NCBI RefSeq assembly: GCF_000378105.1
Contig: NZ_KB899255.1
Span: forward strand, 62,001-126,000
Source: Rubritalea marina DSM 17716
GTDB taxonomy: Bacteria; Verrucomicrobiota; Verrucomicrobiia; Verrucomicrobiales; Akkermansiaceae
Length of the DNA stretch: 64,000 nt
Direction: 5' to 3'
Shown here: piece after piece, positions 41,829 to 44,422 of the stretch
Layout of the letters: every line of letters begins with the position of its first letter
How positions within the stretch are numbered: the stretch's first letter is position 1
Notes under the pieces: model-generated
The model's database searches: none
What the model was told of the DNA's origin: nothing
The model's input: the letters and a program-made list of their open reading frames with translations, nothing else
Made by a program: the position numbers and the translations under genes

Positions 41829-43118
41829 CTATTTCTTGCTGATGTCGTCTTCGGGCTTGTACTCAAAGACGCGCACGCCAGGTGCGTCGGTCACGTAGTT
41901 CCAGAGCCAGTGGATAAACACGCTGAGCTTGGAGCGGAAGTCTACAAGGAAGAGGATGTGAATGAATAGCCAAGCAAACCAAGCGATGATGCCTTTGAGT
42001 TGGATCTTGCCGAACTCGACCACTGCATGTGAGCGACCGACAATCGCCATGGCGCCCTTATCCCAGTATACGAAACCGGGGCGCTCAGCGTTTTCTTGGC
42101 CAGGAACCGCTTCCTTAACCAGGAGCTTACCAATGAAGCGACCCATTTGTGAGGCTGCCGGAGCAACACCCGGGACGGGTACGCCATTGGCATCTTTCAT
42201 GAATGTCACGTCGCCAGCTACAAAGATGTCACGGTGACCAGGGAGGCTGAGGCATGCATCCGGTGTTACTTTGCCCGCGCGGTTGGTCTCGACGGGGAGT
42301 TTGCTGACGATGCTTTCGGCTTCGACGCCGGCTGCCCAGAGGATGGAGCCAGCTTCGATCACGGTGTCTTTGGTGATGACTTTGCCTGCTTCGATGTCAG
42401 TTACCATCGTGCTCGTACGTACTTCCACGCCGAGCTTCTCAAGGCGCTTCTGTGTGTAGGCTGAGCTTTCTTCTTCATAAGGGGGAAGAAGGCGTGGGCC
42501 GGCTTCGATCAGAATAACCTTAAGTTGTGAGGTGTCGATGCGGCGGAAGTTGCGCTTCATGGAGCGCTGGATGAGCTCGACGAATGCACCTGAGAGTTCT
42601 ACCCCAGTTGGGCCACCACCTACGATAGCGATGGTCATGAGGCGGCGGCGTTCCTCTGGGTCGTTACTGATTTCAGCTGTCTCGAGATTCTTGAGGACGC
42701 GCTCACGGATTTCGTGTGCTTCGGCGAGTGTCTTCATGCCGATGGTGTGCTCAGCCCAGTGGTCGTTACCAAAGTAGCCAGTCTTGGCTCCTGCTGCTAC
42801 TACGAGGGTGTCGAAGTCGTATGTGTTGCCAGAGCGGCCGGTGAGAGATTTGGCTTCGGAGTCAACGTTGAGAACTTCATCCATGAGAACCGTGACGTTG
42901 TCGGCTTCGTCTAGAATGCTACGAAGGGAGCGTGCGATATCGTGAGATGGAAGGGTAGCGGTAGCTACTTGATATAGCAGCGGCTGGAACAAGTGGTGGT
43001 TTGTTCGATCAATCAGGGTAACTTCAAAGGTCGGCTTGTTTGCGAGTTGCTTCGCGCACTCCAAGCCGGCGAAACCTCCACCGATGATGACTACTTTTTT
43101 GACTGCAATGTCTGCCAT
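41829..43118 (-). CDS. ndh: Type II NADH dehydrogenase
   Basis: NDH-2 passes electrons from NADH to quinone without pumping protons. The 429-residue flavoprotein has an N-terminal FAD dinucleotide fold (KVVIIGGGFAGLECAKQL), a second NADH fold (IAIVGGGPTGVELSGAF near residue 165), the FAD-binding IFVAGDVTFM near 300 and a C-terminal hydrophobic helix pair (WFAWLFIHILFLVDFRSKL) for membrane attachment. A perfect Rex-type operator lies 44-61 bases upstream of the start, which fits the known Rex control of ndh in other bacteria. Confidence 0.95.
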   Translation of the reverse strand: MADIAVKKVVIIGGGFAGLECAKQLANKPTFEVTLIDRTNHHLFQPLLYQVATATLPSHDIARSLRSILDEADNVTVLMDEVLNVDSEAKSLTGRSGNTYDFDTLVVAAGAKTGYFGNDHWAEHTIGMKTLAEAHEIRERVLKNLETAEISNDPEERRRLMTIAIVGGGPTGVELSGAFVELIQRSMKRNFRRIDTSQLKVILIEAGPRLLPPYEEESSAYTQKRLEKLGVEVRTSTMVTDIEAGKVITKDTVIEAGSILWAAGVEAESIVSKLPVETNRAGKVTPDACLSLPGHRDIFVAGDVTFMKDANGVPVPGVAPAASQMGRFIGKLLVKEAVPGQENAERPGFVYWDKGAMAIVGRSHAVVEFGKIQLKGIIAWFAWLFIHILFLVDFRSKLSVFIHWLWNYVTDAPGVRVFEYKPEDDISKK

Positions 43119-43156
43119 GCGCTGGGCTTAGTCTGATTCGACGAAGGACACAAGTA

Positions 43157-43184
43157 AGACTTTGTGAAAAATTTCACAAAGTCT
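43157..43184. promoter_or_regulatory. Rex-type operator (perfect 28-bp palindrome)
   Basis: The sequence is a perfect inverted repeat of 13-base arms around AA. Its core at 43162-43179 is TTGTGAA-AAAT-TTCACAA, which matches the published Rex consensus TTGTGAAnnnnTTCACAA exactly. Rex senses the NADH/NAD+ ratio and represses genes such as ndh. The same core also fits the CRP half-site pattern TGTGA-N6-TCACA, but the longer match and the adjacent NADH dehydrogenase favour Rex. Confidence 0.75.
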
Positions 43185-43382
43185 ATTTTACTGGCTTCAT
43201 TAGCCCTGATTTTCATGGGTTTCACGCTGAGATTATTTTGGACAAGACCCATGGATTCCCTTAGTTTCATGGGATTGAAGCACGGTGATTGTTGCTCAAA
43301 GCAAGAAAATTGTGAAAAAAGCAAGATCATTCAATACAGATTAATCACAATCCGATATGTTAAAGCTGTCTTGATGGAATAG
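43164..43382 (+). CDS. Possible small membrane protein with Cys-rich tail
   Basis: A 72-codon frame starts at a GTG inside the palindromic operator (KNFTKSILLASLALIFMGFT). It encodes a basic N-terminus, one membrane helix and a tail with GDCCSKQENCEK. The composition looks like a real anchored small protein, but a start codon inside an operator is awkward and no ribosome-binding site is seen. An internal ATG at 43215 would remove most of the helix. It could instead be the untranslated upstream part of the RNA that ends at 43617. Confidence 0.3.
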   Translation: MKNFTKSILLASLALIFMGFTLRLFWTRPMDSLSFMGLKHGDCCSKQENCEKSKIIQYRLITIRYVKAVLME

Positions 43383-43450
43383 GCATCACTCAATAAAGCA
43401 CTCCCCCCGTGATTTAGACAGAGTGAGCTCATCAAAGACTTAGGCACAAC

Positions 43451-43618
43451 ATAAGGCGGTGATGATCCCCCACAATGCTTCGGCATTGCCATTGGTCATC
43501 CCCCTGCAGCACAAAATCCCCGATACGCCGTTTGGTGGACTGGTTTTCTCCCCAGTTCGTCCACCAAGCGGCGCTCCCTTTCCCGCGGACGCCACGATTG
43601 ATGGCGTCATTTTTTTTG
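43451..43618 (+). ncRNA. Candidate structured C-rich small RNA or long 3' UTR
   Basis: Three hairpins follow one another and end in a U tract. Hairpin A (43461-43500) has a lower stem gatgatc/ggtcatc and an apical caatgc-TTCG-gcattg, a stable UUCG tetraloop. Hairpin B (43526-43573) has 15-bp arms, cgccgtttggtggac with gtccaccaagcggcg, one G-U. Hairpin C is the terminator. Unpaired or loop segments carry UCCCC at 43466, 43499, 43517 and 43549 plus UCCC twice after hairpin B; another run lies at 43402. The overlapping frames on both strands have poor protein character. The 5' end is unknown. Promoter and expression are not visible from sequence, so this is a structural prediction. Confidence 0.5.
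43588..43617 (+). terminator. Strong intrinsic terminator of the candidate RNA
   Basis: The stem gacgcca/tggcgtc with a seven-base loop is followed, after one A, by eight consecutive Ts on the plus strand. The minus strand has no T tract. No protein gene ends directly before it except the doubtful frame ending at 43382. Confidence 0.85.
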
Positions 43619-43834
43619 TTCAATGGTGAAGGCTCCAGGGGTGGGCGAGTGCTGCGATTATCGTTGACATCGAGTGAGTCAGGTATTAACACCGCGATCC
43701 ACCTCTGCCGCTGGTGTTTGATCTCACAATCTACCGGCCAATGGATATTGGTACATCAAGGGCAGGGAGTATCTAATTAGAAACGTCTGATAAAGCATCT
43801 TTGGGCGAGGTCTAACTTCCAAACAAACAACAAC
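43619..43834 (+). promoter_or_regulatory. Promoter and structured leader of rplY
   Basis: TTGACA at 43664-43669 is a perfect -35 box; TAACAC (43687-43692) at 17 bases is a weak -10. Downstream, aacaccgcg/cgctggtgtt and ccaat/attgg can form hairpins, giving a leader of about 140 bases. The start of rplY is preceded by an A/C-rich run (aacaaacaacaac) without a Shine-Dalgarno. Autoregulatory control of the ribosomal protein gene is possible but unproven. Confidence 0.4.
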
Positions 43835-44422
43835 ATGGCTATTAATACAGTAAAAGCTACTGAGCGTGCACGCACTGGCTCAGGAGCATTGAATGCAATG
43901 CGTCGTGAAGGTTTCGTTCCAGCCGTAGTATACGGTGCTAGCGAAAACCAGAACGTGAAAGTAAACGCGAAAGAATTCCGCGACATGCTCAACGCATCCC
44001 CATCTTCACAGATTCTTTTGAACCTCGAAGTTGAAGGCGGTAAAACACAACGTGTGTTCATCCAGGACCTTCAGTTCGACGCAATCACAGGTGCGATTCT
44101 TCATGCCGATTTCCTTGCGGTGACTGACAATACAGTTCTTACAGCGAAGCTTCCTGTAGTACTTCAGGGCGAGCCTGCGGGCATCAAGCTCGGTGGTGCT
44201 CTTGAGCAGTTGGTACACTCTACCAAGGTGAAGGCGCTTCCGAATGATCTTCCAGAAACAATCGAAGCTGACGTTACAGGGCTCGGTCTTGCAGAGTCTC
44301 TCACCATTGGTGATATCGACTTCCCTGCAGGTGTGACCCCGACACTCGATGGCAGAGTTCTTGTTGCACTCGTAGCAATGACACGTGCAGCTAAGTCCGC
44401 AGGCGCAGGTACTGCTGAGTAA
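43835..44422 (+). CDS. rplY: 50S ribosomal protein L25, CTC type
   Basis: L25 binds 5S rRNA. The 195-residue length marks the two-domain CTC form rather than the short E. coli form. The N-terminal RNA-binding domain shows LNAMRREGFVPAVVYGAS and the second domain has IKLGGALEQLVHSTKVKALP and IEADVTGLGLAESLTIGDI. It heads a run with pth, rpsF and ssb, the usual rplY-pth neighbourhood. Confidence 0.96.
   Translation: MAINTVKATERARTGSGALNAMRREGFVPAVVYGASENQNVKVNAKEFRDMLNASPSSQILLNLEVEGGKTQRVFIQDLQFDAITGAILHADFLAVTDNTVLTAKLPVVLQGEPAGIKLGGALEQLVHSTKVKALPNDLPETIEADVTGLGLAESLTIGDIDFPAGVTPTLDGRVLVALVAMTRAAKSAGAGTAE

Follow-up and report, generated by a model that had tools for sequence, protein, structure and literature searches.

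A probable lineage-restricted, Rex-independent C-rich small RNA gene next to ndh in Rubritalea marina

The locus and its neighbours

In this work, we examine a window of 64,000 nucleotides from the genome of Rubritalea marina DSM 17716 (3.0 Mb, 95.5% complete), and we particularly focus on the 716 bp that separate a divergent ndh-type gene from rplY (Table 1). The closest named relative that we found is Rubritalea profundi SAORIC-165, with protein identities of 81% for ndh and 80% for rplY; the host is placed in the same genus, within the Verrucomicrobiota. Between the two genes lie a perfect Rex operator, a conserved promoter-like block and a C-rich region with three hairpins, the last of which belongs to an intrinsic terminator.

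Two other features of this gap can be mentioned. A 72-aa open reading frame (43164-43382) has a hydrophobic start and a GTG inside the Rex box; considered as a small protein, it was discarded, having neither a Pfam match nor a counterpart in R. profundi. An AT-rich stretch (43303-43345), which precedes the promoter-like block by about 100 bp, can likewise be aligned with R. profundi (AGCAAGA..TTCAATACA) and is possibly a regulator site.

Table 1. Features of the ndh-rplY region and the R. profundi counterpart (window positions, except where a locus is named).
Feature	Position	Strand	Basis or remark
ndh-type NADH dehydrogenase, divergent neighbour	41829-43118	-	Pyr_redox_2 above cut-off; NDH2_C just below cut-off
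Rex operator TTGTGA-AAAATT-TCACAA	43162-43179	.	perfect consensus match
Conserved promoter-like block AAAGACTTAGGCACAACATAA (R. profundi ...AAAATATAAT)	43434-43454	+	core of best-conserved run
Putative small RNA of ~159 nt with three hairpins and C-rich single strands	43459-43617	+	fold z = -5.1
Hairpin 1, loop C(UUCG)G, UUCG at 43479-43482	43461-43500	+	predicted fold
Linker, mostly unpaired, UCCCC at 43499 and 43517	43499-43525	+	motif scan, predicted fold
Hairpin 2, 15-bp arms, UCCCC (43549) in apical loop region	43526-43573	+	predicted fold, R. profundi comparison
Tail, unpaired, UCCC at 43575 and 43581	43574-43587	+	motif scan, predicted fold
Intrinsic terminator, 7-bp scored stem then T8	43588-43617	+	stem 43588-43608, T8 43610-43617
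rplY promoter-like TTGACA-N17-TAACAC	43664-43692	+	downstream of sRNA terminator
rplY	43835-44422	+	other flank of sRNA candidate
R. profundi homologue	L072:3360-3532	-	synteny with ndh; fold z = -3.7

Anatomy of the candidate RNA

A preliminary description of this DNA had proposed a small RNA spanning 43185-43618, made of three hairpins (one capped by UUCG, one with 15-bp arms) and an eight-T terminator, with five UCCCC motifs followed by two UCCC. All of these elements were recovered on the + strand, with TCCCC starting at 43402, 43466, 43499, 43517 and 43549, and TCCC at 43575 and 43581; a further upstream copy of the latter starts at 43257. The five TCCCC of 43400-43617 compare with 0.94 expected, and none of 2000 dinucleotide shuffles reaches five. 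Elsewhere in the window, no 217-nt stretch of either strand contains at least four. The fold of 43459-43617 is also more stable than that of any of its 200 shuffles.

The proposed span holds from about 43459 to the terminator, while the portion 43185-43430 is probably outside the RNA. With a likely start near 43459, the UCCCC at 43402 falls upstream of the gene, so that four UCCCC remain inside and, together with the two further UCCC, provide the set of exposed C-rich motifs that is expected of a RoxS/RsaE-like RNA. Of the UCCCC, which were described as lying mostly in loops or single strands, not all are fully unpaired: the UC of the motif at 43466 is predicted to be paired.

A homologue in Rubritalea profundi

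A DNA search over 195 genomes of the family returned only weak matches, one of which (E = 0.038, 84% over 31 bp) lies in R. profundi, 450 bp upstream of ndh, at the syntenic position and in the same orientation. This is the only clear homologue among the 11 other genomes of the genus (2 of 12 including the host). A covariance model built on two sequences, that of R. profundi included, was then run against the same 195 genomes and scored clearly in R. profundi only; the weak matches in G009, G041, G024 and G006 (E 0.02-0.9) looked, on reading, like unrelated sequence.

In the alignment, the conserved block AAAGACTTAGGCAnAAnATAA is followed by a first hairpin, then by a C-run and by a second hairpin whose loop contains CCCC. 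At the position of hairpin 1, R. profundi has a hairpin with an unrelated loop; the counterparts of the linker and of the tail are UUCCCCCC and ACCCUCAAUUCCC, respectively. Both copies are C-rich (34-36%), and each contains four runs of at least four C and no G4 run. The excess of C-runs is significant in the window and not significant in R. profundi alone (P about 0.08 to 0.14), and the number and spacing of the motifs differ between the two species.

The comparison is most telling for hairpin 2, of which 14 of the 15 pairs are kept in R. profundi, four by double-sided changes and two via G-U, and whose pairing is lost when it is slid by 1-3 columns. Its arms differ by 11 transitions and no transversion, as against 23 and 24 in the rest of the alignment. 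The probability of keeping at least 14 pairs is 0.0014 for an equal number of random substitutions with the transition share found elsewhere, 0.13 if all substitutions are transitions, and 0.02 if the four double changes are also required; the shuffle control built into the tool gave 36 of 500. For two sequences, we consider the covariation support to be good but not overwhelming. Conserved secondary structure, a general mark of sRNAs, is thus found in hairpin 2 across two species, and the earlier proposal of an sRNA gains support from the syntenic homologue, whose main stem shows compensatory changes.

It is also conceivable that the element is never transcribed, being a DNA-level inverted repeat or a decaying remnant beside ndh. 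Its presence in so few genomes of the genus would fit this explanation, as would the intrinsic terminator, which was not found downstream of the R. profundi copy, and the fact that other portions of the ndh upstream region likewise align between the two species. Against it, both copies fold more stably than shuffled sequence (Table 1), the arms have changed by transitions only, with G-U pairs that suit a + strand RNA, and the element is not a repeat: it is single-copy in its own genome, and searches of phages and plasmids gave no match to it. We hold this explanation to be unlikely.

Promoter-like block, strand and transcription unit

The promoter-like block has a local score of 42 against R. 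profundi, for a shuffled maximum of 37. No good -35 box was found at this block. With up to 3 mismatches allowed, it has no second match in its own genome, and the search did not reveal further copies linked to C-rich hairpins. In R. profundi, a TATAAT closes the conserved block, and hairpin 1 starts a few bases later, which is why we place the start near 43459; the block would be the promoter of the sRNA and its 5' end would lie at about this position. As a stand-alone unit, the candidate has a clear terminator, and the conserved block is its putative promoter.

The + strand is favored by the comparison with R. profundi, in which 14 of the 15 pairs of hairpin 2 are kept on this strand and 12 of 15 on the other. 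The T-run and the UUCG loop are meaningful only on the + strand, which the G-U pairs suit as well.

The position of the element between ndh and rplY could also suggest a cis element, either a 5' leader or attenuator of rplY or, on the - strand, a part of the ndh 5' UTR. However, a promoter-like element proper to rplY lies past the terminator, namely a TTGACA-N16/17-TA found at the same position in most of the aligned Rubritalea relatives, so that the sRNA element is most simply a separate gene. In R. profundi, the gene that follows is not rplY but a decayed frame that we take, by eye, to be aminopeptidase-like. An rplY leader should be part of the rplY transcript and stay with this gene; here the terminator and the promoter-like element intervene, and the downstream gene changes, so the element is not such a leader. 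As for the ndh 5' UTR, the - strand lacks a T-run, and pairs are lost on it in R. profundi. A cis element is thus very unlikely.

The rplY gene has a conserved leader of its own at 43690-43830 (...AAAGGCTAN..CTCTCTACCACCAGCCA... then CTAGAAACGTCNNATAAAGYANCTTNNGGCGATGTCTAAC), which is kept across Rubritalea (L033, L034, L036, L037, L040). Its second part is predicted to pair by RNAalifold, and no Rfam family matches it in the window; it is a candidate L25 leader of the Verrucomicrobiota.

The Rex operator and redox control

The preliminary description placed the sRNA under the control of Rex, by analogy with RoxS/RsaE, and proposed that its UCCC motifs block Shine-Dalgarno sequences. The perfect Rex box, the Rex gene that is encoded in the host genome and the several UCCCC motifs all speak for such a redox sRNA. 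Nevertheless, the box is found at about 44 bp from the ndh start codon and about 280 bp upstream of the putative start of the sRNA, and it most likely serves ndh, outside the sRNA gene. Moreover, G007 (L097) and Luteolibacter pohnpeiensis (L073) have a Rex box at ndh without the sRNA, while R. profundi keeps the RNA and has, at the corresponding position, a degenerate operator (TCGTCG...TCATAA). The operator and the RNA are thus uncoupled across species, and control of the latter by Rex is not supported.

The genome contains a second perfect Rex operator (L140:6620-6637, that is, G000:C8:31620-31637), about 70 bp upstream of an apparent F0 subunit a gene, in what we take by eye to be the ATP synthase operon.

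Shine-Dalgarno use, pairing targets and RNA-binding proteins

Use of the Shine-Dalgarno (SD) sequence was assessed on 263 ORFs with a minimum length of 150 aa, in 384 kb of the genome (the 320 kb of stretches L126-L141 plus the window). SD-like tetramers precede 6.5% of the starts, while control positions give 8.4% and 5.7%; applied to E. coli, this crude method finds them before 56% of the starts, with controls at 9%. Since ORFs and starts were called mechanically, single cases are unreliable, and a real signal should nevertheless show as it does in E. coli. The SD signal is absent before the start codons of the host genome. Akkermansia has likewise been listed as SD-scarce (PMC10783764). The pattern used for the 3' end of the 16S rRNA had a sole match, in a sulfatase-like gene (read by eye), and did not reveal the host's own anti-SD.

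With no SD signal, the proposed pairing of UCCCC with SD regions is disfavored and could hardly be a general mode here. Together with the distance and the uncoupling of the Rex box, this makes a Rex-controlled, SD-blocking sRNA of the RoxS/RsaE type most improbable. The start regions of ORFs in the 320 kb of genome stretches were also searched for predicted pairing with the exposed motifs, and no enrichment was found (54, versus 51-72 with shuffled motifs).

This last result would agree with an RNA that titrates a protein, its repeated single-stranded C-rich motifs sequestering an RNA-binding protein in the way that CsrB sequesters CsrA, here with a C-rich motif. A single motif repeated between stable stems would suit this function, and the genome encodes two RRM proteins (L144, L145). 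On the other hand, we know of no protein in this genome that prefers C-rich RNA, and the number and spacing of the motifs are unlike in the two species. Titration seems quite unlikely.

No Hfq match was found in the genome (95.5% complete), and the combination of two RRM proteins with no Hfq match resembles the Bacteroidota set-up for RNA regulation. In Bacteroides, the RNA-binding protein RbpB binds sRNAs (PMC11697453).

Interpretation

We favor, tentatively and with a probability of about 0.42, a stand-alone regulatory RNA gene whose product pairs in trans with G-rich mRNAs, independently of Rex and of SD sequences. Its direct basis consists of the sequence features, the homologue, the compensated hairpin, the + strand preference and the absent SD signal. 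From these, we infer an RNA of about 160 nt on the + strand, with a start right behind the conserved block and an end at the T8 terminator, in which stable hairpins would hold several exposed UCCCC-type motifs apart. In trans, these motifs would most likely base-pair with G-rich segments of mRNAs, possibly with one of the RRM proteins as a helper, and the pairing would alter the translation or the stability of the targets, with neither control by Rex nor covering of SD sequences. The locus is probably a lineage-restricted sRNA gene that is independent of Rex: the preliminary description recognized a real element and misassigned its controller and, probably, its mode of action.

That the candidate represents an undescribed family of C-rich regulatory RNAs in the Verrucomicrobiota, working with neither SD nor Hfq and relying on RRM proteins or on G-rich targets other than ribosome binding sites, is a more doubtful proposition. 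A limited literature search found no characterized sRNA from this phylum, so that a candidate backed by comparative data offers a useful way in. Should it be real, it would illustrate the action of C-rich sRNAs in bacteria that dispense with SD sequences.

Comparison with known systems

The window contains no match above the gathering score of any Rfam family, and relaxed thresholds gave nothing credible, so that the candidate matches none of these families; in 43119-43834, the RsaE model is absent even from the matches with E values of up to 10. The LhrC family consists of multicopy Listeria sRNAs with UCCC-type C-rich motifs. Such motifs are common to LhrC and to our candidate, whereas the latter is single-copy, has no Rfam match and resides in an unrelated host with no SD signal.

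RoxS/RsaE of Bacillus and Staphylococcus are similar in being intergenic, in carrying several UCCC-type C-rich motifs and in sharing their genome with Rex. In contrast to them, the candidate has a long 15-bp central hairpin and no Rfam match, and its host lacks an SD signal. The Rex operator of RoxS is immediately downstream of the start (PMC5419742), whereas the Rex site here is neither at the promoter nor conserved with the RNA. The case is a warning against transferring the RoxS model to such genomes on the grounds of a nearby Rex box and UCCC motifs.

The RbpB-bound sRNAs FopS and GibS of Bacteroides are close in terms of setting, as the host has no Hfq match, has RRM proteins and makes little use of SD sequences. 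FopS is composed of a single-stranded 5' seed and one terminator hairpin (PMC11697453), whereas the candidate, which has no Rfam match, is predicted to consist of three hairpins with C-rich linkers.
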